Notes: generated by a model not told the origin, from the letters alone. 64,000 nt of DNA from Candidatus Tectimicrobiota bacterium (GCA_016192455.1 JACPUC010000003.1:1-64000); one strand, 5' to 3'. Counted from the stretch's first letter, positions 2,500-45,516 are shown. Program-made: numbers and translations.

Positions 2500-3100
2500 G
2501 CGGTGGTGTGCCGGATTTGGCTCGCGCCAACTGCGGCGCGCCCGGGCGAGGATTGACGCGGTGGCGGCGGACATGGCGCCCGCCTCCATCAAAGTGGTGC
2601 GGCGGCACCTCCCCGGTGGACCATCGTCTCGAACCACTTCCACCTCCTCGGGCTCGTCAATGCAAAGGTGGCGCTCCTACGCCAGTTGTTGCACCGCGCG
2701 GCGGAGAGGGTGCTCCAAAAACAGGTCCTGAAGGGCAGCCGCTTGTTGCTGGTGAGGAATCCTGAACATCTCGATGCGCGGCGCCATGTGTGGCTGCGGC
2801 TCCACGAGGCCCTGGCGCTCAACCAACCCCCGGCCACGACGTACGACGTGAAGGAGGACCTGCGACAGCTCTGGACGCAGCCGGACAAGGTTACCGCAGC
2901 CCGCCTCCCTGAGGACTGGATTGCTCGCTCCGAGGCCTCAGGCATCCGCATCCTGCAACGGCTGGTCAGAACCCTTGCCACTTACCGCCGGGACATCCTG
3001 GCCGTCTAAGACATCTCCATCTCCACGGGACCACTAGAGGCCGTCAACAAGAGAATCAAGGTGCTCCAGCGCTAGGCCCTCGGCTTCCGCGATTCGGATG
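2500..3100 (+). pseudogene. ISL3-family transposase, multiply broken
   Basis: Pieces of an ISL3-type transposase lie in more than one frame. A block corresponding to DHFHLLGLVNAKVALLRQ spans a frameshift near 2640-2670; a 113-residue open part follows (2668-3009, with QLLHRAAERVLQKQ and LVRTLATYRRDILAV). The C-terminal block DISISTGPLEAVNKRIKVLQR is then preceded and followed by in-frame stops at about 3007 and 3073. Codon use is GC-rich compared with the surrounding island. It is inactive and was probably an IS that inserted and decayed. Confidence 0.75.
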
Positions 3101-4155: not shown

Positions 4156-5856
4156 ATGCCAATGAGTACTAATGCACAGTGTTTAGTGAGTATAAGAACT
4201 AAAATGCTACGTACTGTCATCCCACTCGTGGCCGTGCCGATCCTCCTCCTAGGGCTGGGATGGTTCGCCACTTCCAAGCTTGAAGAATCAACAAAAAATG
4301 AGCGATTCTTTCAGCAGCGTTCTCAGGATCTGATCGCTATTTCTGAAATTCCTTCTATCCAGAACTTTTTTATTAACTTAGGTTACGGACCAGAGTTTCT
4401 CCCAGAGGCGGATCGTTTTCGCAGAGAAATAGAACGCTATAATGAGAGATTTTTTGTGCGAAACCAGCTTTTCAAGGGAACCCTTTATAAGGACATAAGC
4501 CTCATTGTGCTTATAAGAGACTCCAACGGTATGATTGTGCAATGGAAAGAGGCGCTTCGGTCGACGGCTCAAGAACTTTCTGCTAATCCTACGGCAATTA
4601 TTCCATCGAACACGTACTTGCAATCCGCCCTTCAAAGCGGACCAGGAAAGGTTTCATTCAGCGCCCTGGCCCCAATCATGCACGCCGTAATTCCGATCTA
4701 CAGAGACGAAAACTTTGATGGCCTGAACTCGCCTGCGGAATTAAAAGGGATACTAACGAGCAGCTTTACTTATCCCATGGCTGAATTTCAGCATATTAGG
4801 AAAATGGCATCTTTGACAATTGTATCTATCCTCTTCGCAAGCCTGCTCATAGCGGTGATTATTGTGAGCTTCGTCATCGGCAAAATTACTGAACCCATCA
4901 ATCATCTTGCTGAGGCAACCCAAAGAATTGCGAACGGTCAACTCTCTCTGACGCTTGACGTCAAGACCAATGACGAAATTGGAGCATTGGCTCACGATTT
5001 TAGCAAGATGACCCTTGAACTCAGCCGTTCGATTACGGCGAAAGAGCACTATGCGGCGGAGCTTCAAGCACTGAACACTGAATTAGATATACACGTCCAC
5101 CAACGAACCGAAGAACTCCGTGAAGCAAATAAGAAGCTTCAACTTGCCAACAGGGAGCTTGAAGAAGCTGATCGGATGAAATCAGAATTTCTCGCCAACG
5201 TTTCTCATGAGATTCGTACCCCACTCACCATTATTCGATCTTCGGTATATAACCTTCTCTTAGGTATTGGCGGACCTCCTTCTGAGAAGCAGCAGAAATA
5301 CTTGAAGACGGTGGAGAATAATATACATCGGCTCACGAGTTTTGTTAACGATTTACTAGATTTAGAGCGAATCCGTGCAGGCTTTGTACAGTTCACGCTT
5401 CGCCCTGTCCTGACCTGCAATCTTGTTGAAGTAGTCTTGGACAATCTCGTCGCACAGGCGGCAGAAAAAAATATTACGCTGAACTATGAACGAACTAATC
5501 CGCCCATAGTTGCTTATGCTGACCGGGATCAGACAATTCAAGTACTGACAAATCTTGTCGAAAATGCTATCAAGTTTACCCCCCAAAATGGCAGCATTGT
5601 ACTGAAGACGTATTACGAAAATGGGTCGTGTGTATTAATGGTACAGGATAGTGGAGAAGGAATTCCAGAGCGCGATCTGCCGTTCATCTTTGATCGGTTT
5701 TATCGAGTACAACGTGGGACTGCCGCCAAGGGGAGCGGGCTTGGGCTTTCTATTTGCAAAAGGCTAGTTGAACTTCAAGGAGGCCAGATTCAGGTACAAA
5801 GCAGTCCAGGAGCTGGAACGACGTTTTTTGTTACCTTCGCATCCTACACGCAATAA
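4156..5856 (+). CDS. membrane sensor histidine kinase (HAMP, HisKA, HATPase)
   Basis: 566 residues. Membrane segment 1 is at about 15-36, an extracytoplasmic sensing region of about 175 residues follows, then membrane segment 2 (about 215-240), HAMP (KITEPINHLAEATQRIANGQL), and a coiled coil. The HisKA block FLANVSHEIRTPLTII has the phospho-acceptor at His351. The ATPase has an intact N-box (NLVENAIKF), G1 (DSGEGIP) and G2 (GSGLGLSI). GGAAGGGG precedes the start; ATG 4162 is an equally good start. The response regulator follows at 5894, so the two form a two-component pair. They stand directly before the sigma-54 promoter of the peptide locus, which suggests they sense the trigger for it. The signal is unknown. 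Confidence 0.88.
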   Translation: MPMSTNAQCLVSIRTKMLRTVIPLVAVPILLLGLGWFATSKLEESTKNERFFQQRSQDLIAISEIPSIQNFFINLGYGPEFLPEADRFRREIERYNERFFVRNQLFKGTLYKDISLIVLIRDSNGMIVQWKEALRSTAQELSANPTAIIPSNTYLQSALQSGPGKVSFSALAPIMHAVIPIYRDENFDGLNSPAELKGILTSSFTYPMAEFQHIRKMASLTIVSILFASLLIAVIIVSFVIGKITEPINHLAEATQRIANGQLSLTLDVKTNDEIGALAHDFSKMTLELSRSITAKEHYAAELQALNTELDIHVHQRTEELREANKKLQLANRELEEADRMKSEFLANVSHEIRTPLTIIRSSVYNLLLGIGGPPSEKQQKYLKTVENNIHRLTSFVNDLLDLERIRAGFVQFTLRPVLTCNLVEVVLDNLVAQAAEKNITLNYERTNPPIVAYADRDQTIQVLTNLVENAIKFTPQNGSIVLKTYYENGSCVLMVQDSGEGIPERDLPFIFDRFYRVQRGTAAKGSGLGLSICKRLVELQGGQIQVQSSPGAGTTFFVTFASYTQ

Positions 5857-5893: not shown

Positions 5894-7279
5894 ATGGCAA
5901 AGTATGAAGCAAAAATCCTTATCGCTGATGATGAAGAGGAAATCGTCGATGTCCTGCGCGATATGCTCGAAGCACTTCATTATGAAGTTATTGTAGCTGT
6001 TGATGGATTTCAAGCGCTTGCGCTGATTCGCGAGGAAGAACCTGTTGTCGTGCTGCTGGATTTGAAGCTTCCAAAGTTAGATGGGCTGGAGGTCCTACGC
6101 AGGCTTGCAGAATTGGCAGTAGAAACCACGGTGATTATGCTCACGGCATATGGTACGGTCGAAAACGCCGTAAGGGCAATGAAGATAGGCGCCTATGACT
6201 TCATAATTAAACCTTACAACCCTGAACAGTTGCAGCTGGTTATTGAAAAGGCAGTCGAGCGAGATCGTTTGCGAAGGCAAAACACCTTCTTAAATGAGTT
6301 GGTCAATACCAGGTATAGTCTGCTTATTGGAGGGAATAGGGCCTTCAGAGATGCGTTAGATGAAGCACGTGTGTCCGCAGAAACGGACACGAACATTTTG
6401 CTCGTTGGCGAGACAGGAACAGGGAAGGAAATATTTGCCAGAGCCATACACCGTTGGAGTCGTCGTGCACGTGAGGCATTTGTTCCGATAAATTGCGCAG
6501 CACTCTCAGAGGAACTTCTCCTGAGTGAATTATTTGGGCACGAGAAAGGTGCGTTTACGAGTGCCCATCAAAGAAAACTTGGTAAGTTGGAAATTGCGCA
6601 TAAGGGTACAGTATTTTTGGATGAAATTGGTGATATTGATTTATCAATTCAAGCAAAGTTGTTGCGGTTTTTGCAGGAATATGAATTTGAACGTCTTGGA
6701 GGTAATAAGCAAATCAAGGTTGATATCCGTGTAATAGCCGCCACAAATAAGGATTTGCGGCAGGCTATAAAGAATGGAACTTTTCGGGACGATCTCTACT
6801 TTCGGCTCAATGTCGTTAGCATTATGTTGCCGCCATTGAGAAAGCGACTAGATGATATTCGACTGCTGGCGGACTATTTTCTCCAAAACTGTAATTATTC
6901 AATGAAAAAAAGTGTAAAGGGGATTACCGATGAGGCCTTTGAAGTACTCCAAAACTATACCTGGCCAGGCAATGTTCGGGAACTGCAAAATGTCATTGAG
7001 CGGGCAGTGGTATTCTGCCGCTCCGATGGTATCCATCCCCAGGACATTCTTCTGCAACCCCTTGATGGGCAAATTCTTGCTGGGAGCACTACCACTGCCT
7101 ATCACGACTGTGTCCGGGAATTCAAGCGGCGTCTTATTTATGAAGTACTTCAACAATCCTCCGGAAGCCCAACAAAGGCGGCGCGGACGCTCAAATTACG
7201 AAGAACCTATTTGGCAAGGTTGATCAAACAATTCGACGTTAAATTAACCCCAGCAGGTAGCAGCGACCGGCATGTCTGA
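5894..7279 (+). CDS. NtrC-type sigma-54-dependent response regulator
   Basis: 461 residues from the ATG after AGGAGG. The receiver domain has Asp12/Asp13 and phospho-acceptor Asp56 (VLLDLKLPKLDG). The sigma-54 AAA+ domain has Walker A GETGTGKE, the sigma-54 contact loop written GAFTSA instead of the usual GAFTGA, Walker B VFLDEIGDI, and WPGNVRELQN. A Fis-type HTH lies at the C-terminus (AARTLKLRRTYLARLI). It is the cognate partner of the upstream kinase. A good -24/-12 promoter lies 227 bases beyond its stop, the natural target. The Ser in the contact loop is a known natural variant whose effect here is unknown. Confidence 0.92.
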   Translation: MAKYEAKILIADDEEEIVDVLRDMLEALHYEVIVAVDGFQALALIREEEPVVVLLDLKLPKLDGLEVLRRLAELAVETTVIMLTAYGTVENAVRAMKIGAYDFIIKPYNPEQLQLVIEKAVERDRLRRQNTFLNELVNTRYSLLIGGNRAFRDALDEARVSAETDTNILLVGETGTGKEIFARAIHRWSRRAREAFVPINCAALSEELLLSELFGHEKGAFTSAHQRKLGKLEIAHKGTVFLDEIGDIDLSIQAKLLRFLQEYEFERLGGNKQIKVDIRVIAATNKDLRQAIKNGTFRDDLYFRLNVVSIMLPPLRKRLDDIRLLADYFLQNCNYSMKKSVKGITDEAFEVLQNYTWPGNVRELQNVIERAVVFCRSDGIHPQDILLQPLDGQILAGSTTTAYHDCVREFKRRLIYEVLQQSSGSPTKAARTLKLRRTYLARLIKQFDVKLTPAGSSDRHV

Positions 7280-7505: not shown

Positions 7506-7522
7506 CTGGCATTCGACTTGCT
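7506..7522 (+). promoter_or_regulatory. sigma-54 promoter (-24/-12)
   Basis: The sequence CTGGCATTCGACTTGCT matches the consensus (YTGGCAC-N5-TTGCW) closely: GG at 7508-7509 and GC at 7520-7521 with the obligatory 10-base gap, TGGCA intact, TTGCT intact. Transcription would begin near 7533, 27 bases before the GTG of the acetyltransferase gene. A sigma-54 activator gene ends 227 bases upstream. This is the strongest regulatory signal in the island. Confidence 0.82.
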
Positions 7523-7559
7523 TAGTCAGCGATTGTTGCCTTCCGGCCAGGAGTTCACA

Positions 7560-8096
7560 GTGGGCGGTATAAGTCTATTACATCTACATACAAGTACGCG
7601 TGTTCGGACGGTTGAAATAGACGATTATTACTTTATACTCTCCAGCGCCAGCAGGTGGTGGGGAGAACGAGGGCCAGCGATCTTTCCGAGATTCTTTGTC
7701 ACGCACTTCGCTGATACGTGTTTCGTAGCTGAAGGAGCAGAGACCATTGTCGGGTTTCTCTTTTCCTTTCTTTCACAGAAGTACCAGGATGAAGCTTACA
7801 TTCAGGGGGTGGTGGTCGATCCGCAGCACCGCCGCTGCGGCATCGCCTCTCTCCTCTACAAGAGCTTTTTTTCCAACATGATTACGCGAGGGGTCAGGCG
7901 CGTGACAGGCATCCTTTCCCCTGAGAATACTGAGGCGCTCGCGTTCCAAATTTCACAGGGTTTTCGTATCGCTTCCCCTATCCAGTGGGGACAAACACCA
8001 ATCATCGTCAATGGCCTTCCTGCCTTTCCTGATTACCTCGGGGCAGGAAGAAATAAGTTACTCCTTATCAAGACTCTAAAGGAGTCCGGAGCGTAA
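7560..8096 (+). CDS. GNAT-family N-acetyltransferase
   Basis: 178 residues from a GTG with AGGAG 6 bases upstream; a TTG at 7518 would add 14 residues but lies inside the sigma-54 promoter, so it is rejected. The core shows the GNAT acetyl-CoA loop: a beta strand YIQGVVVDPQHRRCGIASLLY (Q/RxxGxA type, read here as RRCGIA) followed by helix and FQISQGFR. It is the first gene of the sigma-54-driven operon, 4 bases before the glycosyltransferase gene and upstream of the precursor. It may acylate the peptide product, a sugar on it, or confer self-immunity; the sequence does not say which. Confidence 0.8.
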   Translation: MGGISLLHLHTSTRVRTVEIDDYYFILSSASRWWGERGPAIFPRFFVTHFADTCFVAEGAETIVGFLFSFLSQKYQDEAYIQGVVVDPQHRRCGIASLLYKSFFSNMITRGVRRVTGILSPENTEALAFQISQGFRIASPIQWGQTPIIVNGLPAFPDYLGAGRNKLLLIKTLKESGA

Positions 8097-8100
8097 GCGT

Positions 8101-9315
8101 ATGAAAATCTGCCTCATCAGCAAGTATCCTCCCATCGAGGGTGGTGTGGCAGCAAAAAGTTACTGGCTCGCAAAGGCACTAGGAGCACGCGGACATCAAG
8201 TGCACGTTGTAACGAACGCTGACGAAGTGGAGGACTCCTATAGGGAGGAAATTCCCGAAGAAGAGAGGGGTCTGCTCGAACCGCAAAACGTTCGCCGTTG
8301 GAGCACTTCGCCTTCGATGAGAAAGCGTTTTATCCCGCAGTACAATCCACACATTGCCAAACTCGCAAATCTCGCGCTTGCAGTGGTGAGAGAAGTTGAT
8401 GTAGACCTTGTGTACTCACATTATCTCCTTCCGTACGGTGTAGCTGCGCTTTTGGTCAAGCAGTTGGGGAAACTGCCTCTGATCGTAAGACATGCCGGCT
8501 CAGATATCACGTCCCTATATCGCGCTCCTTTTTTGCATGAGATCTTGCGTGAAGTCCTCGCAGGCGCAGACGTAGTGCTCGGTACACAAAGGACAAAAGC
8601 TATCCTTAAAGGAAGCGGGATCAACCCAGAAAAGGTGGCCGTAATCAAACAGGCAGTCAATCTACGAGAGTTTCATCCTGACAATCCGGCTTATGATTTC
8701 CGACCGTATGGTATTCCCCACACTGCTGAGTACCCCGTCATCACCTATATCGGAAAGGTTTCAGCGTTGAAGAACCCCACTGCCTTGTTACGCGCTGCAG
8801 CGCGCCTAAAGGATCTCCAATTTTCCTTAGCGTTCGTAGTAGGACGGGGAACGACGATTGAGCAGCTTAAAGGTTTGGCAAAAGAATTGGGAATTGATCA
8901 AAAATGCGTCTTTCTACCCTTTGTCCCCCCTTGGAGCATGTCGCGGATCATGACTGCCTCAACGTGCATCGTAAAACCGGAAAGTGACGAAGAACCGTAC
9001 CTGCCGAGAGGTACCCATTATCCAATCGTATCTCTCGAGGCGATGGCTTGTGCATGCTGCACGATTATCGGTGAAAAAGTAAAAGGGAAGGGTATATACA
9101 GATTCTTTCAGGATGGCGTGCATACCCTCGCAGTGAATCCTTCCAATCCAGAATCATTTGCAGAAAAGCTGGCTTTTATAATTCAATACCCCCAATTGGC
9201 AAAAAAAATCGGCGCAGCAGCTCGGGCGCTCCTGGAACAGCATGACGAGTGGGACGACGCAATCCAAATAATCGAGTCCGTGTTTCTGCGCTGTGTAGAA
9301 ACACATCACGGCTAA
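8101..9315 (+). CDS. GT4-type glycosyltransferase
   Basis: 404 residues with the GT-B layout of family 4: N-terminal MKICLISKYPPIEGGVA and a Rossmann half, then the C-terminal nucleotide-sugar half with YIGKVSALKNP (about 218-228), a sugar-donor region ESDEEPYLPRG, and SLEAMAC near residue 310. It follows the acetyltransferase by 4 bases and is 25 bases before the precursor gene, so the three are co-transcribed. In a RiPP locus a glycosyltransferase suggests sugar attachment to the peptide (as in glycocins, though those use other GT families). Acceptor not predictable. Confidence 0.85.
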   Translation: MKICLISKYPPIEGGVAAKSYWLAKALGARGHQVHVVTNADEVEDSYREEIPEEERGLLEPQNVRRWSTSPSMRKRFIPQYNPHIAKLANLALAVVREVDVDLVYSHYLLPYGVAALLVKQLGKLPLIVRHAGSDITSLYRAPFLHEILREVLAGADVVLGTQRTKAILKGSGINPEKVAVIKQAVNLREFHPDNPAYDFRPYGIPHTAEYPVITYIGKVSALKNPTALLRAAARLKDLQFSLAFVVGRGTTIEQLKGLAKELGIDQKCVFLPFVPPWSMSRIMTASTCIVKPESDEEPYLPRGTHYPIVSLEAMACACCTIIGEKVKGKGIYRFFQDGVHTLAVNPSNPESFAEKLAFIIQYPQLAKKIGAAARALLEQHDEWDDAIQIIESVFLRCVETHHG

Positions 9316-9340
9316 CCCCAGTAGGAGAGGAGGTTGATTG

Positions 9341-9532
9341 ATGGTCAGCACGAGAACCATGTTGGCGTCGGACGTTGCTCAGCTTCTTGAGGTGCGAACC
9401 GCCCGCATCTCAGCAGCTGTCGGGACAAGCATTCCCGGCGGTAACCTGAATCCCGAGTTCGAAGAGGTTTCCCTCTGGGAACCCGCAGATGGATTCTGTG
9501 GTTGCGGTTGCGGGTGTGGGTGCGGTGCCTAA
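9341..9532 (+). CDS. RiPP precursor peptide with (Cys-Gly)5 core
   Basis: 63 residues from an ATG with AGGAGG at a 7-base spacing, the best ribosome binding site in the island. Residues 1-50 are a Cys-free leader (with an acidic stretch PEFEEVSLWEPAD at about 38-50). The C-terminus reads GFCGCGCGCGCGA: Cys at 53, 55, 57, 59 and 61, alternating with Gly. A short leader plus repetitive Cys core next to DUF692, radical SAM and exporter genes is the classic layout of a ribosomal peptide that is modified on its Cys residues. The core resembles Cys-Gly-rich precursors described for thio(seleno)oxazole-type rSAM systems; that comparison is from memory. Its stop overlaps the convergent SBP gene by 4 bases. 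Confidence 0.85.
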   Translation: MVSTRTMLASDVAQLLEVRTARISAAVGTSIPGGNLNPEFEEVSLWEPADGFCGCGCGCGCGA

Positions 9533-11160
9533 CGCGCAGCACCGGGTGTCGGTGCGATGCGCACACTTCTCAGAAAGGTGCGCTGGTCCTCTTCTGGTCC
9601 CAGCGCACCAACCCTCTTATTCCTCACCAGGATAAACGGGGAATCATACAGAAAAAGGCAGCAGAGATTGTCGTGGAGCATCTTTTCTAATCTCTGTAGG
9701 AGAACCTTCTGGGTATGAATATCTTGTTCGAGGCTGACCCGCTCCAGCACTTCATCAAAAAGATTATCTTTACGTGACCACCTGAAGATACCATCCTTTG
9801 AGAAGAAGCTGGAAAAAAGGCCAAACGAATCAAATTGGGGGAAAATCGAGGCAATCAATATGTCCCAATCTTGTTGCTGAAGCGCCTCCTTGCTGTATCG
9901 CATGACGTTGATCAGGGGGAAAAAGGCTGACGGATGGAGAGCACTGAAGCTCATGGAAATGCCGAAGGGCTTCAATTGAGCGCGAATAATAAGAGCTAGC
10001 TTTCCCAGGAAATCTGGAACAAGGAGCTTGATGTGAACCTCCGTTCGCTCCTTTTCCATAAAATTTCTCAAGATTCGAGCTCCTTCCGTTGGGTCAAACG
10101 TATAAGGTTCGAGGTCGGGGTTAGAACCAAACATTGAGGGAGGAAGCAGTCCGGCGATAACCCGCCCATTGCCTCCAAGGAAATGATCAATGATTTCGTC
10201 TCTGTTAATTAATAAGTTTAGAGCACGGCGTAAGGGCTTCTGCAGCCAGAGAGAGTTATGTTTCCGTTGGTTAAATACAGCGATCGTCAAGGGCCCAGGG
10301 AGCTTTGAGATTTCGATGTTCGGGTGTGCCACATCGATGTCGGTGAGTGAGTAGCGTGCAACGGTCAAATCAAGTTGACCGTTTTTTACGGCCTCTATTG
10401 CCCATTGGGGATTCGCAGGAGCCGGCACGAGAATGATGCTTGAGATCTTCGGGAAGCGCTTGTCCCAATAGTAGGGGTTGGCCTTGAGCACGATCTTTGC
10501 TGAGGTATGAAAGGTTGTCGAGTGTCCGGAATGAAGAATAAAGGGGCCGGTGCCATAGGGTCCCGGCTCCTTGAGAATGGCGATGGGGGGCTCGGCGTAC
10601 TTGTGTAGGTAGCTGCTTGAGGCAAGAGGAAAAAGGGACAGGCTCAACATAGGAAGCCCTGGCTTATGTGGATAGATAAACCTAATGGTGAAGGGGGAGA
10701 TGACCTCCATCTTCGTGTTGTTAGGGAAAGCCCTGGTCCTTCCTCGTGCTGGTTGGTAGGATTTGTAAACCTCAAAATTCTGTCGCACGACCTCGGCATC
10801 AAATGGCGTACCATCGTGAAAGCGCACACCCCTTCGCAGGTGGAGTTCAAGCGTTCGGACATTGCTCCAGCGCCAGTCCGTCGCCAGGACTCCCTTCGGT
10901 TCGCCATTCAGAACTTCTATCAGTGGCTCGAAGACCAAATCGTGGACATGTGTAAATGGCCGAATATGCCACCCAAAGGTAAGCTGAAAATCTGAGGACG
11001 AAACTACTACCTTTGGATACATAGTGATGAGGCAAAAAATGAAGAGACATGCAAGACCCCTCCCCCAGCTACCGGCCGTCGGTGTCGGCCTCGGATATCG
11101 CCCTGCGCTACACAGAGAGATAGTATCACATTTGCGCGAAATCACCTGTCTTGAAATCAT
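9529..11160 (-). CDS. family 5 extracellular solute-binding protein (peptide-type), orphan
   Basis: Up to 543 residues. After a hydrophobic export segment (LACLFIFCLI, about 36-45) comes a full SBP_bac_5 fold: VFEPLIEVLNGE, LRRGVRFHDGTPFDAEVV, GPYGTGPF, LRRALNLLINRDEII. These proteins deliver oligopeptides or nickel to ABC importers, but no permease or importer ATPase gene is near. ATG 11160 gives a 122-base head-to-head overlap with the DUF692 gene, so the true start may lie further in. An orphan periplasmic binder beside a RiPP operon suggests capture of product or precursor, or a sensing role. Confidence 0.8.
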   Translation of the reverse strand: MISRQVISRKCDTISLCSAGRYPRPTPTAGSWGRGLACLFIFCLITMYPKVVVSSSDFQLTFGWHIRPFTHVHDLVFEPLIEVLNGEPKGVLATDWRWSNVRTLELHLRRGVRFHDGTPFDAEVVRQNFEVYKSYQPARGRTRAFPNNTKMEVISPFTIRFIYPHKPGLPMLSLSLFPLASSSYLHKYAEPPIAILKEPGPYGTGPFILHSGHSTTFHTSAKIVLKANPYYWDKRFPKISSIILVPAPANPQWAIEAVKNGQLDLTVARYSLTDIDVAHPNIEISKLPGPLTIAVFNQRKHNSLWLQKPLRRALNLLINRDEIIDHFLGGNGRVIAGLLPPSMFGSNPDLEPYTFDPTEGARILRNFMEKERTEVHIKLLVPDFLGKLALIIRAQLKPFGISMSFSALHPSAFFPLINVMRYSKEALQQQDWDILIASIFPQFDSFGLFSSFFSKDGIFRWSRKDNLFDEVLERVSLEQDIHTQKVLLQRLEKMLHDNLCCLFLYDSPFILVRNKRVGALGPEEDQRTFLRSVRIAPTPGAAR

Positions 11161-11959
11161 TATCGACCATTTCCTTGATATGACCCCAGAAAAAGAGGCA
11201 CAGTTTCATGACCTCGCCAGTAATGTCTGTCTCCTCTCCCATGGCATTGGTATGTCCTTGGGAACGGCACTTCCGGTAGAAAGTGCGTATGTCAATAAAG
11301 TTAAGCGAACGCTAGACATCGCGCGCTCCCCCTGGTTCAGTGAACATGCAGCGTTTACGAAAGTACCAGGAATTGACCTTGGGCAGTTGATGCCACTGCC
11401 CTTCACTGAGGAAGCCGTTGATGCGATCACGCAAAATATAGGAAAACTGAAAAACAAAATCAAGCAGCCACTTCTCTTGGAAAACATAGCCTACTATCTC
11501 GCACACCCCGCTGGGGAAATGACGGAAGCGGAGTTCCTCACGCGCATATTGCACAAAGCTAATGTCTACTTGCTCTTGGACATCAATAATGCCTATACCA
11601 ACTCGGTCAATCACAACTACGACCCATATGAGTTTATTCTCTCGCTGCCTCTCGACAGAGTTGTCCAAATTCACCTCGCTGGAGGTGAATGGAAGGGACA
11701 ATACCTTATCGACTCTCATCGGAGGTCGATCTCACGTGAGGTTTGGAGGCTCTTCGATTTTGTCGTCCCGCGTTGTGCGGTGAAGGGCGTTATTGTAGAA
11801 CGCGATGGTCATTACCCGCCATTTTCAGAACTTCTCGAAGAGGTGCGCACGGCGAGGTCCACATTGAGAAAATACGGAATCTTCGTTCGCAGTCTTCGGA
11901 GGAGGGTAACAAGTGTTCCTGGCAGAACAACAAATGCTGCTCGCCCGAGTTCTTACTGA
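11039..11959 (+). CDS. DUF692 multinuclear iron oxidase (MbnB/TglH family)
   Basis: 306 residues from an ATG preceded by GATGAGG. It has the family's TIM-barrel landmarks and likely metal ligands in order: LLSHGIGMSLG, WFSEHAAF, LLLENIAYY, LLLDINNAY, VNHNYDPYEF, VQIHLAGGE, IDSHRRSI and the Glu-Asp of VERDGHYPPF. Members such as MbnB (methanobactin) and TglH act on Cys of ribosomal peptides using iron and O2, making oxazolone/thioamide or excising carbon. The five-Cys precursor encoded at 9341 is the obvious substrate. The partner gene overlaps its 3' end by 47 bases, indicating translational coupling. Confidence 0.9.
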   Translation: MKRHARPLPQLPAVGVGLGYRPALHREIVSHLREITCLEIIIDHFLDMTPEKEAQFHDLASNVCLLSHGIGMSLGTALPVESAYVNKVKRTLDIARSPWFSEHAAFTKVPGIDLGQLMPLPFTEEAVDAITQNIGKLKNKIKQPLLLENIAYYLAHPAGEMTEAEFLTRILHKANVYLLLDINNAYTNSVNHNYDPYEFILSLPLDRVVQIHLAGGEWKGQYLIDSHRRSISREVWRLFDFVVPRCAVKGVIVERDGHYPPFSELLEEVRTARSTLRKYGIFVRSLRRRVTSVPGRTTNAARPSSY

Positions 11960-12761
11960 TGAAGTTGTGCGGCAGGCGATTGCTGGCAGTAATGATGTGG
12001 AGGGATCACTCCGTGAGTTTCCTGACGAGGCTCGTGCCTACCTGCGCGCGCTCGATAGCAGCCGTTTAACCCTCTGTGCCGACCTCATCAAGCAAAAGCG
12101 CGAAGCGAAGATTCGTCAGATGCTTCCTTTAACTATTGGTTTGCTGGGCACGGACGCGGAAGGATTGTTTGCCTCTTTTTTTCCTATGACTCCACCAACG
12201 ACAATCAGTTTTCTTGAGGAAGCGATTGCGTTTTACCATTTTACTTGCTCTCCAAAGTTCGAGACCAGGAATGGCATCCAACTGGTAAGGGAGGTAGGCC
12301 GCTGGGAATTGTTGTGCCATGAAATTTCCCAGGAAACAAAAACCAAGATCTGTCTCTTGTCGTGCTGCACGCAGCATGCGCAACCCCGTGGCCGGATTGA
12401 TGCGAGCACGATTCTACAGAATTGCGCACATGCCAGATGGGAATCGTTTACCTATGAGATACACACTATTGCCAAAAATTACAATGCGAACAATTGCGTG
12501 AAAGCGCCGCGGAAGGATCCTCAGACTTATCTCTTTTACAAGATATCAGGAGTGGAGCAAATACACATTAGCAAAATCAATGAGGTAACAAGGTTATTCC
12601 TCGACTGCTGTGTCGGCGGAAGTCACTTTCGCAAGATAGAGATGGTTTTGCAGGATCGACTAGGAATGAATACCACAGAGAAGAGGAAGGCATTTCGATT
12701 AGCGTTGCATGAGCTTGCCGAACGCCTCTATATGAAGCGCATCATAAGCAGAGTAAACTGA
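11913..12761 (+). CDS. DUF692 partner protein (MbnC/TglI-like role)
   Basis: 282 residues from a GTG preceded by GGAGGAGGG at a 6-base spacing, overlapping the DUF692 gene by 47 bases. The N-terminus (LAEQQMLLARVLTDEVVRQA ... FPDEARAYLRALDSSRL) matches the helical domain typical of proteins encoded next to DUF692 enzymes, which bind the precursor leader and complete the enzyme. The C-terminal half contains scattered Cys but no motif I know. Its place and coupling argue for a heterodimeric modification enzyme with the upstream product. Exact family not certain. Confidence 0.65.
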   Translation: MFLAEQQMLLARVLTDEVVRQAIAGSNDVEGSLREFPDEARAYLRALDSSRLTLCADLIKQKREAKIRQMLPLTIGLLGTDAEGLFASFFPMTPPTTISFLEEAIAFYHFTCSPKFETRNGIQLVREVGRWELLCHEISQETKTKICLLSCCTQHAQPRGRIDASTILQNCAHARWESFTYEIHTIAKNYNANNCVKAPRKDPQTYLFYKISGVEQIHISKINEVTRLFLDCCVGGSHFRKIEMVLQDRLGMNTTEKRKAFRLALHELAERLYMKRIISRVN

Positions 12762-12763
12762 CA

Positions 12764-14644
12764 ATGTTTCCTCAGGAAATCTCTAACATAGGACGTATTA
12801 ATTTTGCCGGAGCAACGGCGCATCGGGTAACTAATTGGCCGTTTCGACGGATTTTCTCATATTTTTCGAGGTTTAAGAGAGAACTTGTCTTCATCCTTTT
12901 AAGCATTGTACTTGCAGCGGTTGCGCGCACGCTAGTTCCGTTAATTCTGCGCAACATTATTGACCATCAGATAGTTGCGTATGAACCATATCGACTCGCG
13001 CTAACTGTATTATTACTCATCAGTCTCACCCTTGGTGCGGCGCTCGTTGGAATTGTCGAGAATCATGTCAACACATCCGTAACACAGCATGTCATCTTGA
13101 ATTTAAGACAGGAATTATATGAGAGATTGCAGGAGAGCTCTTTGCAAAAGCTTACCAATACCGCAACGGGAGATCTGCTGTCGCGCTGTACGAACGACCT
13201 GACAGGGGTGCAGGAAGTATTGGCGCGTTCATTTGCCCTCAGTACGGCGAATCTCGTGACCGTCCTTGCGACATGCGTCGTTATGTTTTACCTTGACGCG
13301 TGACTTGCGACTTTTACGCTTGCGATTCTCCCCCTCTTTGTCCTCCCGGTTCGGCGCATTGGAAAATTACGTCAAACCGTGAAACATGCTGTGCAAGAAA
13401 GATTAAGCCTTTTGACTTCGCTCTTGGACGAAGCTACTCGGGTTCAAACCGTAATCCTAACTCGGTCATTTAATTTGACAAAACAGCGCACGAAGCACTA
13501 TCGAGAAATAACAGATGAGGTAAGAAAGCTTGAATGTCGGAACCATTTCATTGGAAGATGTTTTCTTCTCCTTCTATCAACAGCCTCGCCAGTTGGGGTT
13601 GCGCTACTGTTTTGGTACGGCATCCCAAAAGTAGCACATGGTGATCTCACCCTAGGCACGTTGATAGCTTTCAGTGCTTACCTGGGAAGGATTTATGCTC
13701 CGGTGAGCCAATTACTTAACGTCCAGATCGATTTTCTTGCCTCCATTGCGTTGTTCCAAAGAATATTTGAAGTCTTTGATCATTATGGCAAACCGAATCG
13801 CCGGGTAAGGGAGAAGAGAATTGTCGAATTTACGAAGGGATCAATAGCGGTAAGAAATCTCTCATTTACGTACGATGCCCAATGTTGGGGCATCAAAGAC
13901 GCTTGTTTTGACATCAACCAGGGGGAGATTGTAGCTCTTGTTGGTCCGTCTGGAGCGGGAAAGACTACCTTGGCATACCTCCTTGCGGCCCTGTATGAGC
14001 CGACCCTCGGCAGTATTTCTATAGATGGCTATAATGTTTTGGATCTTGATGAAAAAAGTCTGCGCCGGTGCGTCGCACTTGTGACAGAAGATAATTGCTT
14101 GCTGGATGCGACGATAAGAGATAATCTTCTACTTGGCAATGAATTGGCCCGCGAGGATGAAATTCTGAAGGCTTGCAAAGCGGTGGGCATACATGATTAT
14201 ATCACCTCACTTTCTAAGGGATACGAGAGTTGGTTACACCAGGGTGGTGCCCAGTTGTCCGCAGGACAGAAAAGGAGGGTGATGCTCGCGAGGGCAATGA
14301 TTAAGAATCCGCTCATTCTTATTCTTGATGAAGTTACTTCTTCCCTTGACCCGATGGCTCAGGATTCCATCAACAATGTTATCAAAGCATTGTTTGCTCA
14401 GCGAAGCGGTCTTATTATAGGTCATCATCTCCCAACAATATTGCTCGCAGATAGAATTCTCGTCATCGAGAACGGAAGAATTGTTCAGCAAGGCGTCCAC
14501 GAAAAACTTGTAAGAGAGGGCGGCCTCTATGCGCGTTTATTTTCCTCATATCCATATAATGGCAGGGATAATAGTATGGAAATTGTGCTCCAGAATTCCA
14601 GGGTAAATACTGCAGATCATAAAGAATACATTCAGGAAAGATAA
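12764..14644 (+). pseudogene. ABC exporter (permease-ATPase), interrupted by one in-frame TGA
   Basis: The frame from ATG 12764 runs to 14644 with a single TGA at 13301-13303. Before it lie membrane helices and the start of the ABC transporter membrane domain; after it, the rest and an ATPase with GPSGAGKTT, LSAGQKRRVMLARAM, LILDEVTSSLD and the switch His (IIGHHLPT). Homologues normally read DWRLA where this reads DA-stop-LA, so the stop replaces Arg, a single CGA-to-TGA change. There is no C39 peptidase domain. It begins 2 bases after the partner gene and would export the modified peptide. Either a real nonsense mutation or a sequencing error; an internal start at 13379 could make only a half protein. 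Confidence 0.8.
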
Positions 14645-14817
14645 CCGAGAGTTGAAGCTTCAAGCATTGCAATACATTCTTTTTATACCTGGTATGAGTG
14701 TTCACGCTGTCTGAGACATACTGACTTGGAAAGTATCGTATTTAATCTGCCCTAGACAGCCTTCACAAAAGAGTGGGGGAAGCGTGGACTTTGAGCTGCT
14801 CAGGATGGAGTATTATT

Positions 14818-16068
14818 ATGAGTATCACAAAACGTCCTTACGAAATTTCAGCAGCAGTGCAGTCTGTCTGCGACCGACTAAATAGACTTTATGACGAGGG
14901 TGCGAAATTATATTTTAATACTATTCGCAGAAAACTTGTGCCTAAACCATCACTACACATTTCCGTCACCAATAGGTGTAATCTGTCTTGCACTTACTGT
15001 TACGACAAGATGAGCCAACCTCCTTTTGTCAAGCGCCGCGATATGAGTACGGATGTTGCGACGAGAATATTCAAACAATATCCTGACCCATCTTATGTAT
15101 TTGTACTGGGAGGAGAACCCTTTTTAAATCCTCACGCTGTTGAAGTTCTGCTCGATCATTGTCCCAACAGAATGGTAATCTCTTCGAACGGGCAAGTGCT
15201 CAATGGCCATGTGGAGAGAATTCTCAAGAAGATTATGCGTCGGAACGAAGAAGGACGTGGGACATTACTCCAGATTTCCTGTGAGCTCGGAGGGGTGAGC
15301 TGCGAGCGAAATACAAGAAATGCTGAAGAAATTCTGCGCTACTTTTCTCATGTATGTGGTAGATTCATGAAAGTAAAATATACCCTGACAGCCCCAGACC
15401 TTATCCATATAGATGCAATAGCCCGTTGGTACTGGGACCGAAATATCCTTGTGCAATTTGACTACGTTGATGGCGGCTACGAGAAGGGAGAAGCAATTGA
15501 TCTCTCTGAGACCAACTGGAAAAGGGTGTTTGCGTTTATTCTTAGCGTGCTGCACGAGAGCTTCGAGGAGTGGGCGCAAGGTAACTCCGATGAATGGTTA
15601 ATTCTTCGCGCCAAAACTCTGGTGCACTATGTTTTTCCGCTGACGGTCATGCAGATCAAACATAAGCATCCGCTCTGGTCAATGTGCGGCGTGTTTGGTA
15701 ATTCTGTCTACATTGGCCCTGGGGGTGAGCTCTTCCCATGCCATCGTTGGAAAGCTAGTGTGGAATCCTACGGTTCTTTAGGAGAGCCATGTGAGAGTCG
15801 CATGTTAGCGTTTCATACCGAATCCTGGCCTTCTCTTCAACGTTACTGTGAAGAGTGTGTGTGGCGGGGAAGTTGTGGCGGTGTGTGTCCAGCGGTAACT
15901 TGCACATATGGCGGATTGAGCCTTATTGGACGGTGTAAATTTATGGGAGCGTTACGGGATGCGGTGTGGTCATTTCTATTGGATAAGACAATTGTGTGTC
16001 ATCCACAAATTGATCAATATCTAGACCTCATAAGAGAACTTTCGCCCTTCTACAAGGCTTTAATATAG
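14818..16068 (+). CDS. radical SAM/SPASM peptide-modifying enzyme
   Basis: 416 residues from the ATG preceded by AGGATGGAG. The radical SAM cluster motif CNLSCTYCY has its cysteines at 54, 58 and 61; FVLGGEPFLNP is the GGE motif that binds SAM. The C-terminus is a SPASM domain binding auxiliary clusters, with Cys in CGVFGN, FPCHRW, CEECVWRGSCGGVCP and GRCKF. SPASM enzymes of this size typically install thioether, C-C or related links, or alter side chains, on ribosomal peptides. It is the last gene of the island, 173 bases after the exporter gene, and has no PqqD-like N-terminal leader-binding domain that I can see. Confidence 0.9.
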   Translation: MSITKRPYEISAAVQSVCDRLNRLYDEGAKLYFNTIRRKLVPKPSLHISVTNRCNLSCTYCYDKMSQPPFVKRRDMSTDVATRIFKQYPDPSYVFVLGGEPFLNPHAVEVLLDHCPNRMVISSNGQVLNGHVERILKKIMRRNEEGRGTLLQISCELGGVSCERNTRNAEEILRYFSHVCGRFMKVKYTLTAPDLIHIDAIARWYWDRNILVQFDYVDGGYEKGEAIDLSETNWKRVFAFILSVLHESFEEWAQGNSDEWLILRAKTLVHYVFPLTVMQIKHKHPLWSMCGVFGNSVYIGPGGELFPCHRWKASVESYGSLGEPCESRMLAFHTESWPSLQRYCEECVWRGSCGGVCPAVTCTYGGLSLIGRCKFMGALRDAVWSFLLDKTIVCHPQIDQYLDLIRELSPFYKALI

Positions 16069-16210
16069 CCAGACGAAGGCAGTCTTTTCTATGTCATGTG
16101 TAACGATGTTGTATGAGAATAATACTTTTTCGCCAGCACTTCTTTCAACCCCATTCGTTCATAGTCCTGGTATTTAAAATGTTCACCGCCGTGGGTGCGG
16201 CGCGACAGGT

Positions 16211-17583
16211 TCAGTAGCTCAAGGTGCGGTCGAGGGTGCGGTACATGATGGCTTCGCCGAGGTGGGTTGCCGTGAGGCGCTCCTCGCCCGCCAGGTCGGC
16301 GATGGTGCGGGAGACCTTGAGGATGCGGTCGTGGGCGCGCGCCGACAGGCCGAGCTGGTTGATCGCCGCGTCGAGGAGGCGCTGCGACGGCTCGTCGAGC
16401 TGGCAGTGGCGCCGCAGGTGTTTCGAGGTCATGTGGGCGTTGCAGTAGAGGGAGTCCTTGGCGAAGCGGGCAAGCTGCCGCTGCCGCGCCGCCTCGACGC
16501 GTTCCCGCACGTGAGGTAGCCGCAGGGGCAGGGGTTCATCGCGGCGGTGAGCATGAAGCGCGCCGGGAAGGTGAGGGAGAGCTTCGAGCGGCTGATGGTG
16601 ACCTTGCCATCCTCGAGGGGCTGGCGCAGCACTTCGAGGACGTGGCGGCGGAACTCCGGCAGCTCGTCGAGAAAAAGGACGCCGTTGTGCGCCATGCTCA
16701 CCTCGCCGGGCCGCGGCAGGCTGCCGCCGCCGACCAGGCCGGCATCGCTGATGCTGTGGTGCGGGTTGCGGAAGGGGCGGGCGCCGACCGGCGCCTGCCC
16801 CTGGCCGAGCAGCCCCATGACGCTGTGGACTTTCGTCGTCTCGATGGCCTCCTCGAACGACATGCTCGGCAAGATCGTCGCCAGGCGCCGCGCCAGCATC
16901 GACTTGCCGGCACCGGGCGGGCCGAGCATGAGCATGTTGTGTCCACCCGCCGCCGCCACCTCGAGGGCGCGCTTGACGTGCTGCTGCCCCTTCACCTCGG
17001 CGAGATCGACGCTCTCCTCGGCGGCCTGCCGCAGCACCTCGTCGCGGTCCACCCGGTAGGGGATGATGGTCGCCGCCTGGTTCAGGAAATCCACCGCGTG
17101 GGGGAGGTTCTTCACCGCGTAGACCGGCATCTCCTCGACGACGGCTGCTTCCGCCGCGTTCTCCGCCGGCACGAGGAGTCCCCGGTACCCATGCGCGCGC
17201 GCGTAGACCGCCACCGGCAGGGCGCCCTGGATGGGTTTCACCAGGCCGTCGAGGGAGAGCTCGCCCAGGATGAGGTAATCGCGCAGGCCGTCGCTCTCCA
17301 CCACCCCCAGGGCGGCGAGAAGGCCGACGGCGATGGGCAGGTCGAACGCCGAGCCGCGCTTCTCGACATCGGCCGGGGCGAGGTTGAGGGTGATGTTCTT
17401 GGGCGGGAATTCGAAGCCGCAGTTGCGCACCGCGGCGCGCACGCGTTCCTTGCTCTCTTTGACGGCGGCGTCCGGCAGGCCGACGATGTTGAAGGCCGGC
17501 AGGCCGCGCGCAATGTCCACCTCCACCTCGACGCGGAAGGCCTCGATGCCCACCACCGTGCAGCTATGAACCTTGGCGAGCAT
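16211..17583 (-). pseudogene. comM: comM main part, broken by island and 160-bp deletion
   Basis: From ATG 17583 (MLAKVHSC) the frame is a normal ComM N-terminus, Lon-protease-like domain ([20 protein letters not shown]) and AAA+ domain with Walker A GPPGAGKS and Walker [11 protein letters not shown], up to [10 protein letters not shown] at 16511. Beyond that it meets a second comM 3' end (16211-16510) that lacks the 160 bases corresponding to 752-911, so the frame shifts and stops soon. ComM helps process incoming DNA in transformation; this allele should be inactive unless the island excises. Upstream lie a GC-rich hairpin and the DUF542 gene. Confidence 0.9.
16511..16530. repeat. 20-bp direct repeat, right copy (candidate attR)
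   Basis: Exact copy of 912-931 inside the codons for PCPCGYLT of comM. Recombination between the two copies would remove 15.6 kb and restore a full comM frame. Confidence 0.75.
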
Positions 17584-17755
17584 GGCGGCTGGACACCCCC
17601 CGCAGGCGCGGCAGCGCGGCAAGGCGAAGACCTCGCGCGCGCACCAAATCATGGCGGCGCGTCATGCAGCGGTTGCAGCATACTCTGTGCCAGCGGGAGC
17701 GTCCAGGGGATTGCAAAGGGGCCCCCATGGGGCCCCGAGGTGGGCGCCGCGTGCC

Positions 17756-20368: not shown

Positions 20369-21262
20369 ATGGGATCAATACCAAAGAAGGTGGAAAGTCG
20401 TCTGGCTGACGGACTGAAGAAGTACCAACCCATCATCCGATCGGCACGTGATCGAGATATAAACGAATCGGATACAAGCGTAATTGTTGCGGACGTTCTT
20501 GCTGAGTTATTCGGCTACGATAAATACTCCGAAATTACTACAGAATATGCTATTCGAGGAACCTACTGCGATCTTGCTATTAAGATTGATGGCAAGCCCC
20601 ATCTCTTGATTGAAGTAAAAGCTGCTGCAGTTGACTTCAAAGAGTCACACGTCAAGCAGGCCGTTGATTATGCCTCGAATCAAGGTGTCGACTGGGTTGC
20701 CCTCACGAACGGAGTGATTTGGAAGGTGTTTCGTGTTATCTTTGCCAAGCCAATACATGCAGAACTTCTTGTAGAAATTGACCTGCTCAGTCTCAATCCT
20801 CGGAATTCATCGCATTTAGAAAGTCTCTATCTCCTGACTCGAGAGGGAGTGCTCAAATCGGCACTTCTAAATTACCATACGCAGAAGCAAGCCTTGGACA
20901 GGTTTTCTCTTGCCGCCATCCTGACAAGTGACCTTATGCTCAATGTAATTAGGCGGGAACTTCGCCGCCTCTCTCCTGGTATTAGTATTCAGATTCCTGA
21001 AATAAGATCAGTATTGGAGCAAGATGTACTAAAACGTGAAGTTGTTGAGGGTGATTACGCTAATGAGGCGAAGAAGAGAATTCAACGTGTCAGCCGCCGA
21101 CTTAAGAAGCTTGATCAGCCCAAGACTGGCGATAAAGGTATGCACGAGGATATTGATGAACCTCCTACCATTAGGAGCACACTGTTGAAAAACGATTCGG
21201 CCTCAAAGGTCACTGGTGAATCGGTTGAAAACCAAGCCAAAGATGAAAACCAAGTTTCCTAG
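20369..21262 (+). CDS. lone HsdR_N-type restriction nuclease-like protein
   Basis: 297 residues; the first 170 match the N-terminal nuclease domain of type I restriction R subunits: YAIRGTYCDLAIKIDGK, then LLIEVKAA, giving the PD-(D/E)xK pattern with Asp68 and Glu82-x-Lys84, followed by the QAVDYASNQGVDWVALTNG block. There is no helicase and no HsdM or HsdS nearby. The remaining 120 residues are helical and charged with no known domain. AT-rich codon use marks it as transferred. Defence or DNA-repair roles are both possible; function unproven. Confidence 0.75.
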   Translation: MGSIPKKVESRLADGLKKYQPIIRSARDRDINESDTSVIVADVLAELFGYDKYSEITTEYAIRGTYCDLAIKIDGKPHLLIEVKAAAVDFKESHVKQAVDYASNQGVDWVALTNGVIWKVFRVIFAKPIHAELLVEIDLLSLNPRNSSHLESLYLLTREGVLKSALLNYHTQKQALDRFSLAAILTSDLMLNVIRRELRRLSPGISIQIPEIRSVLEQDVLKREVVEGDYANEAKKRIQRVSRRLKKLDQPKTGDKGMHEDIDEPPTIRSTLLKNDSASKVTGESVENQAKDENQVS

Positions 21263-43904: not shown

Positions 43905-44052
43905 GGGCTGCGGGCGTGCGGGCGTGCCGCGGTTTCTCTCCGCATCCCCTCCAAGGACATTTACGGAATGTCTTAGATTACGGTAGGGTCTTATAGATTT
44001 GTCTGCTAGTCTATGCTATGCTTCATAAAACCTCAATATGAGGAGGCGGGCA

Positions 44053-45516
44053 ATGACTGGCAACATTCTTTTTTACGGTGATAATCTAGATATTCTGCGG
44101 CGACATATTGGGGATGAGACGGTAGACTTGATTTACCTGGATCCACCGTTCAACAGCAAGGCGACCTACAACGTGCTGTTTGCGGAAAAGAACGGCTCGC
44201 AGGCGGCAGCACAATTCAAGGCTTTTGAGGATACTTGGCGGTGGGATCAGGATGCGGCAAAAACATATGAAGAAATAGTTGAGGGCGGTAAGAATATAGC
44301 CAGGACTTTAATCGCATTCAACGAGTTGTTTGGCAAGAACGATATGCTGACCTACCTGGTGATGATGGCGTCACGGCTGGTGGAGCTGCAGCGTGTCCTG
44401 AAGCCTACTGGAAGCATCTACCTACACTGTGATCCAACTGCCAGCCATTACTTGAAAATTCTAATGGACGCAAGTTTTGGACCAAAGAATTTCAGGAATG
44501 AGATTGTCTGGCATTATCGAAAATGGGCGACCGGAAAATACGCGTTTCAGAAAAATCATGATGTGCTGCTTTTCTACTTCCGTTCAGACAGCCGAAAAAG
44601 GACTTTCAATCAACTTTACATGGAACGTGCTCCTTCGACGCTGAAGAGGTTTGGAACTTCCAAGATCGTATCTGGGCATGATGAGACTGGCCGTCGCGTG
44701 CCCTCTCGGACAAAGCAGCAGGAATCAGAGGGAGTTCGCCAAGATGATGTCTGGGCAATTGGGCGCGTTCCACCGATAAAGCAATTGTTCCCAACGCAAA
44801 AACCTGGGCCCCTATTGGAGCGGATTATTACGAGCAGCAGTAATGAAAACGACTTGATCTTAGACCCGTTTTGTGGCTGTGGAACGACGATAGCTGTAGC
44901 ACAACGCCTTCATCGGCGGTGGATAGGTATCGACATTACCTATCTGGCAATTACGGTAATTAAACACCGCTTGCGCGATGAGTTTGGTGAGGGTGTGGTG
45001 GACTACAAAGTGAAGGGGGAGCCGATAGCGTTGCCGGATGCGAAGGTGTTGGCGGAACAAAACCCGTATGAGTTTCAGTGGTGGGCGTTGGGGCTTGTCG
45101 GAGCGCGCCCAGTGGAACAAAAGAAAGGGGCTGACCGGGGGATCGACGGACGGCTCTACTTCCACGACGAAGGTCTCGGCGGGAAAACGAAGCAGATCAT
45201 CTTTTCAGTAAAAGCCGGTACTACCACCGTGGCGCATGTGCGCGACCTTCGTGGCGTGATTGAGCGAGAGAAAGCCGAAATCGGTGTTTTAATCACCATG
45301 CAGAAAATGACGCAACCCATGAGGAGCGAGGCAGCGGGAGCCGGCTTCTATGAATCGCAGTGGGGAAAGCATCCTCGGATACAGATACTGACGATTGAAG
45401 AATTGTTAGCTGGGAAGAGAATCGACTATCCGCCCTCGCGGCAGGTGAATGTGACTTTTAAGAAAGCGCAAAAGGCTAATAAAAATGAGTCCGCAACTCA
45501 AGAACCCTTGCTCTGA
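44053..45516 (+). CDS. DNA methyltransferase fused to Mrr-like nuclease domain
   Basis: 487 residues from an ATG with AGGAGG 6 bases upstream. Methyltransferase motif IV is DPPF (30-33) and motif I is DPFCGCGTT (about 271), the beta-class order of N4-cytosine/N6-adenine enzymes. From about 340 a second domain has GADRGIDGRLYF and QIIFSVKAG, an Mrr-like restriction fold (D...SVK). So modification and probably cleavage reside in one chain. Much more AT-rich than its neighbours and wedged between lysA and dapL: a transferred defence gene. Confidence 0.85.
   Translation: MTGNILFYGDNLDILRRHIGDETVDLIYLDPPFNSKATYNVLFAEKNGSQAAAQFKAFEDTWRWDQDAAKTYEEIVEGGKNIARTLIAFNELFGKNDMLTYLVMMASRLVELQRVLKPTGSIYLHCDPTASHYLKILMDASFGPKNFRNEIVWHYRKWATGKYAFQKNHDVLLFYFRSDSRKRTFNQLYMERAPSTLKRFGTSKIVSGHDETGRRVPSRTKQQESEGVRQDDVWAIGRVPPIKQLFPTQKPGPLLERIITSSSNENDLILDPFCGCGTTIAVAQRLHRRWIGIDITYLAITVIKHRLRDEFGEGVVDYKVKGEPIALPDAKVLAEQNPYEFQWWALGLVGARPVEQKKGADRGIDGRLYFHDEGLGGKTKQIIFSVKAGTTTVAHVRDLRGVIEREKAEIGVLITMQKMTQPMRSEAAGAGFYESQWGKHPRIQILTIEELLAGKRIDYPPSRQVNVTFKKAQKANKNESATQEPLL

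Follow-up and report, generated by a model that had tools for sequence, protein, structure and literature searches.

A 64,000-nucleotide stretch of the Candidatus Tectimicrobiota bacterium assembly GCA_016192455.1 (JACPUC010000003.1:1-64000; hereafter the window) probably contains, to judge from sequence, a biosynthetic cluster for a leader-type, cysteine-dense ribosomally synthesised and post-translationally modified peptide (RiPP), served by a multinuclear non-haem iron-dependent oxidative enzyme (MNIO; DUF692) and a family 4 glycosyltransferase (GT4). A first-pass annotation of positions 7506-16068 had proposed a RiPP pathway here, and its inventory is largely borne out: the precursor ending in five Cys-Gly units, the DUF692 oxidase with its coupled partner, and the GT4, GNAT and radical S-adenosylmethionine (SAM)/SPASM genes are all present. 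Action of the MNIO on a Cys-Gly-rich leader peptide is supported, as is the proposal that the GT4 belongs to the pathway, since in members of two myxobacterial families, as well as in an acidobacterial metagenome-assembled genome (MAG), the same subfamily lies beside MNIO and partner genes, once with a PqqD fusion.

The precursor gene (9341-9532, plus strand; ATG at 9341, stop codon at 9530-9532) encodes a leader-type peptide of 63 residues, MVSTRTMLASDVAQLLEVRTARISAAVGTSIPGGNLNPEFEEVSLWEPADGFCGCGCGCGCGA, which ends FCGCGCGCGCGA and closes with a (Cys-Gly)5-Ala run; upstream of the ATG lies AGGAGAGGAGG, a good ribosome-binding site. The ten codons of the run (TGT GGT TGC GGT TGC GGG TGT GGG TGC GGT) vary at wobble positions only. 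Read directly from the sequence, with no predictor, the peptide has no N-terminal hydrophobic stretch that could serve as a Sec signal. A (CG)4 pattern occurs at a single place in the whole window, as two overlapping matches within the precursor, and in none of 100 shuffles. Most (CG)4 matches in viral contigs are simple repeats in the wrong frame, so the repeat by itself is weak proof, and the pattern was dropped as a genome search query, being swamped by such matches. The precursor is made convincing instead by its ribosome-binding site and by the matching Cys-dense precursors of sister clusters. A Cys-containing precursor, one mark of MNIO-modified RiPP pathways, is found here, with counterparts in a Sorangium locus and four Myxococcaceae loci.

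The MNIO gene (11039-11959, plus strand, with a start at 11027 or 11039) encodes an oxidative enzyme of the MbnB_TglH_ChrH family that passes the curated PF05114 cut-off (271 bits against 25), and is alignable with both 3BWW and TglH. Its end is overlapped by the gene for a PME-like partner protein (11913-12761, plus strand), predicted to comprise a helical N-terminal part and a C-terminal part like a RiPP recognition element (RRE). The partner gives a weak match to HvfC (E 4e-5) and none to any Pfam family, DUF2063 included. Its structure model, of low confidence (pLDDT 56), best matches the lasso RRE 6jx3 (Z 6.6) and TglI (8hi7; Z 5.2), and a Foldseek search returned no match below E 0.001; at low confidence, the model suggests a likeness to RRE domains in the C-terminal part and to TglI over the entire protein. 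No relatives of the partner were found in plasmids.

When all window proteins were compared with MNIO loci by tblastn, the one informative match was to GT4 homologues beside an MNIO in Sorangium cellulosum So ce26 (L230) and in the acidobacterial MAG, from the Bryobacteraceae (L188). The window GT4 (8101-9315, plus strand; above the Pfam cut-off) belongs to an MNIO-linked subfamily with the motif KYPPIxGGV...YW...TNAxEVE, a profile of which, run over 195 Myxococcota genomes, matched four times, in each case next to an MNIO. Sets of MNIO, partner and GT4 occur in six loci, those of Sorangium, four Myxococcaceae genomes (L257-L260) and the Bryobacteraceae MAG, and the window GT4 shares 31-34% full-length identity with the GT4s that adjoin these MNIOs. 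A small Cys-dense open reading frame lies immediately 5' of the MNIO in five of the six, containing GWCACAGRCNCFCGNCAAC in Sorangium and EEFKLEMLDCGPAYAFQDTGSVCFSCVCGSCLCG, VCISCACGSGCLCGC (two genomes) or VCFSCFCGSGCLCGC in the Myxococcaceae, where MNIO and partner are fused into one protein of ~600 residues. The combination of a KYPPIxGGV-type GT4 with an MNIO, a partner and a Cys-dense leader peptide is also that of the window cluster.

The GT4 of L257, from one of the Myxococcaceae, bears a C-terminal PqqD domain that scores over the Pfam cut-off. PqqD is a classic leader-binding module of RiPP pathways, and its fusion here is an argument for the precursor as the substrate of this GT4. The GT4 open frames of the other three Myxococcaceae (666-691 residues) are long enough for a PqqD fusion too, and the L188 enzyme likewise has a long C-terminal extension, where a match to NGO1945_C is sub-threshold only. 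Among 386 genomes across the domain, the GT4 profile found the window and one truncated match, on a short contig that carries cell-wall genes but no MNIO. The comM genes nearest to that of the window are 64-65% identical to it, and for one of the genomes concerned the GT4 profile was run over the whole phylum, without a match; an alignment search of viral contigs with the GT4 was also empty. Asparagine-synthetase-like genes are common to the Myxococcaceae and Sorangium clusters (L257:7048-8817; L230:13651-15384), and possibly provide a further tailoring or amide-forming step.

Related GT4s also occur without an MNIO. On plasmids of Rhizobium gallicum and Agrobacterium, GT4s with 32-33% identity to a Myxococcaceae GT4, and 24-25% to that of the window, lie directly 3' of genes for ~198-residue proteins with the tails CKGCNGCAAGC, CKGCSACSSCGGGGSC and CRGCSGCNSCSGQSC. 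These pairs (Rhizobium, L267:7312-9290; Agrobacterium, L268:6695-11040, with an ABC exporter) have no MNIO nearby in the stretches examined. Such tails were present in 3 of the 32 coding sequences of the plasmid stretches, these being only the proteins that precede a GT4. Taken with the neighbours in the MNIO loci, the plasmid pairs indicate that what these GT4s share as a neighbour is a Cys-dense C-terminus, the L188 candidate being a weak case.

An alignment of two MNIO sequences, used as the query over named genomes, retrieved 433 relatives, of which 80 were kept, and a tree of 89 MNIOs was built. The window enzyme falls in a 22-member clade (support 100/97) that includes both TIGR04222-linked and GT4-linked MNIOs, is drawn from cyanobacteria, Phycisphaerae, Verrucomicrobia, myxobacteria, Bryobacteraceae and Coxiellaceae, and stands apart from a large, mostly gammaproteobacterial group. 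In three clade members checked, a TIGR04222 protein is encoded just before the MNIO, with tails such as CGGCGGCGG and SSCGGGCGGCGGCGG, rich in CGG. These TIGR04222 systems, of cyanobacteria and Phycisphaerae, contain the closest MNIO relatives of the window enzyme (42-45% identity) and have CG-rich C-terminal tails; their substrate, however, is a membrane protein of 310-330 residues with neither GT4 nor radical SAM enzyme, whereas that of the window is a 63-residue peptide. For the MNIO step, the nearest relatives are MNIO systems with CG-rich tails, and not the thio(seleno)oxazole-type radical SAM systems that the first-pass annotation had named as nearest; an SbtM-type system was not among the 25 of 70 family matches listed for the radical SAM enzyme. 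An MNIO alignment found nothing in viral contigs. A Coxiellaceae MAG locus (L182:9088-14657) contains partner-like, MNIO, deacetylase-like, ABC exporter and aminotransferase-like genes, with no precursor found.

From these data a pathway can be proposed. An NtrC-type two-component system would activate a sigma-54 promoter 5' of the GNAT, GT4 and precursor genes. The RRE-like domain of the partner would then hold the leader while the MNIO, with O2, oxidises the cysteines of the (Cys-Gly)5 run. A thiooxazole-like outcome is the best guess, 5-thiooxazole-type heterocycles being favoured because the characterised 5-thiooxazole MNIOs (FonBC) prefer the Cys-Gly dyad (PMC12668002). The GT4, whose membership rests on comparison between loci, would attach one or more sugars within the Cys-rich core, either at sulfur or at a different residue. 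An additional change at Cys, for instance a thioether, may come from the SPASM radical SAM enzyme of this window. A postulated leader-cleaving protease would then act with the ABC exporter to free the peptide, which may bind metal or be antibacterial.

Several observations weigh against this scheme. In the tree, a long branch leads to the window MNIO, which groups weakly (85/65) with TIGR04222-linked MNIOs and not with the other GT4-linked ones; the leaders of the related precursors show only weak likeness; and the Bryobacteraceae candidate, CIVCFVCFVCVVC, is uncertain. The ABC exporter named at first pass (12764-14644, plus strand) has a single frame for its membrane and ATPase domains, but this otherwise open frame is interrupted by a single in-frame TGA at 13301-13303. 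Neither the radical SAM enzyme, nor the GNAT protein, nor the family 5 solute-binding protein has a homologue in any of the six related loci, and the last of these is encoded between precursor and MNIO, splitting the pair.

This solute-binding protein gene (9529-11022, PF00496 156 bits; start at 11022 or 11160), listed at first pass as an orphan, lies on the minus strand, its stop overlapping that of the precursor and its start abutting or overlapping that of the MNIO. Precursor and MNIO genes are adjacent in the sister clusters, and the protein is probably outside the pathway. The radical SAM/SPASM enzyme (14818-16068, plus strand) has a CxxxCxxC motif and matches to PF04055 (44 bits) and the TIGR04085 SPASM domain (31 bits, cut-off 27); as a single query it found no relative in genome contigs, and its best plasmid match covers 20% of the query. 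The GNAT-family acetyltransferase (~7560-8096, plus strand; PF00583 42 bits, above the Pfam cut-off) has a putative pathway role. That the radical SAM, GNAT or solute-binding protein acts on the peptide, as first suggested, is not established, and the role of the radical SAM enzyme is the least certain of all, given its weak likeness to thioether-forming enzymes and its absence from the relatives.

Other readings of the cluster can be weighed against the same evidence. The captophorins (bufferins, oxazolin and fontiphorin, made by an MNIO with PME1) resemble the window in having an MNIO with an adjacent partner gene and Cys-Gly-containing targets, and the product might be a copper-binding RiPP of this kind, in which the MNIO makes metal-binding thiooxazoles from Cys-Gly and the GT4, GNAT and radical SAM genes are unrelated neighbours. 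The closest NCBIfam models to the window MNIO are indeed BufB (224 bits) and HvfB (216 bits), and the preference of 5-thiooxazole MNIOs for Cys-Gly (PMC12668002) suits this reading. Both scores, however, fall below their cut-offs (310 and 360, respectively), and captophorin precursors bear Sec signals and their partners DUF2063, whereas the window has a leader peptide, a partner without DUF2063, an ABC exporter, a GT4 and a radical SAM enzyme. As cut-offs, partner signature and signal peptide all fail, the window set lies outside the captophorins. With an MNIO outside the gammaproteobacterial group, and a GT4 kept beside such MNIOs and once fused to PqqD, a captophorin-like product with chance neighbours is unlikely.

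It is highly improbable that the radical SAM/SPASM protein is the main tailoring enzyme, forming thioethers as in ranthipeptides or sactipeptides while the MNIO acts elsewhere. Its best family, among the matches listed, is PapB (69.6 bits) and its nearest solved sequence, weakly, is CteB (5wgg), both of them thioether makers, but the PapB cut-off of 340 is missed, the enzyme has no N-terminal RRE, and all six related loci retain MNIO and GT4 while lacking it. A decayed or patchwork cluster, left over from an island and marked by a disrupted exporter, the insertion of a solute-binding protein gene and a junction in comM, would account for the in-frame TGA, for the gene between precursor and MNIO, and for the transposase fragment, comM duplicate and codon composition described below. 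The frames of the precursor, GT4, MNIO, partner and radical SAM genes are nevertheless intact, and the differences among Cys-Gly codons are confined to wobble positions, which makes decay decidedly doubtful as an explanation. An MNIO and GT4 cluster for a Cys-dense RiPP is the preferred reading.

The cluster lies within a 15-kb low-GC segment whose genes have a GC content at third codon positions of 0.39-0.61, against 0.9 in comM and the next gene. Partial copies of the 3' end of comM (Mg chelatase-like) flank it at 451-750 and 16210-16509, with 94% identity; they extend over 451-970 and 16210-17652, the longer one having an internal deletion and a frameshift, and no further strong copy of the duplicated stretch was found in the assembly. 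Inside the segment lies a fragment of an ISL3-family transposase (2668-3006). Low GC at third positions, flanking comM copies and the ISL3 fragment point to foreign DNA or, less likely, to an assembly join. Two further low-GC genes in the high-GC host (20369-21262 and 44038-45516) are by appearance nuclease/restriction-like and DNA methyltransferase-like. Upstream of the cluster, on the plus strand, are genes for a sensor histidine kinase (HAMP-HisKA-HATPase by Pfam; 4156-5856), probably the cluster regulator, and an NtrC-type response regulator with receiver and sigma-54 interaction domains (5894-7279; PF00158 229 bits, PF00072 98 bits). The sigma-54-like promoter CTGGCATTCGACTTGCT (7506-7522, plus strand), just 5' of the GNAT gene, agrees with the consensus at 11 of 13 positions, and is one of three such sites on both strands of the first 16.2 kb. 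No Rfam RNA family was found within the window.

No characterised pathway matching the cluster gene for gene was found, and the related loci, which might always have lacked DUF692 and radical SAM genes, carry an MNIO in all six cases but no radical SAM gene. TglHI, of the 3-thiaglutamate (pearlin) pathway, shares the HLAGG motif with the window MNIO, and the window partner is weakly TglI-like in predicted structure; there, however, the C-terminal Cys is added in a tRNA-dependent manner, whereas the window precursor itself encodes five Cys-Gly units. In glycocins (SunS/ThgS-type, S-glycosylated RiPPs) a glycosyltransferase acts on a Cys-rich peptide, as proposed here, but glycocins involve GT2-family enzymes and disulfides, and the window enzyme is a GT4 by Pfam and accompanies an MNIO. 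The pbs (biphenomycin-like) and apy (aminopyruvatide) clusters, like the window, combine MNIO, partner and radical SAM enzyme in one pathway; in contrast to the window, their MNIO acts on Phe or C-terminal Asp, there is neither GT4 nor Cys-Gly core, and the radical SAM enzyme, that of apy included, is B12-dependent. They nonetheless set a precedent for radical SAM and MNIO chemistry in one RiPP pathway (PMC12257519, PMC10635010).

No description of an MNIO and a glycosyltransferase in one pathway was found in the literature searched, which covered few subscription journals. According to a 2025 survey of the MNIO landscape, many minor MNIO precursor types are still to be found; glycosyltransferases, PqqD and myxobacterial examples are absent from its main text (PMC12452194). 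It is tentatively proposed that the cluster represents a RiPP class whose single run of consecutive Cys-Gly units is the shared substrate of an MNIO, a GT4 guided by an RRE and a SPASM radical SAM enzyme, which together would give a glycosylated poly-heterocycle peptide. The GT4 subfamily would in that case be a novel kind of glycosyltransferase, directed at Cys-rich tails whether or not an MNIO takes part. The precursor family, the GT4 subfamily with its PqqD fusion, and the related clusters of Sorangium cellulosum So ce26 and the Myxococcaceae make glycosylation in MNIO pathways directly testable, and the same GT4 type beside the Cys-rich tails of Rhizobium and Agrobacterium hints at a broader glycosylation system for Cys-rich C-termini.

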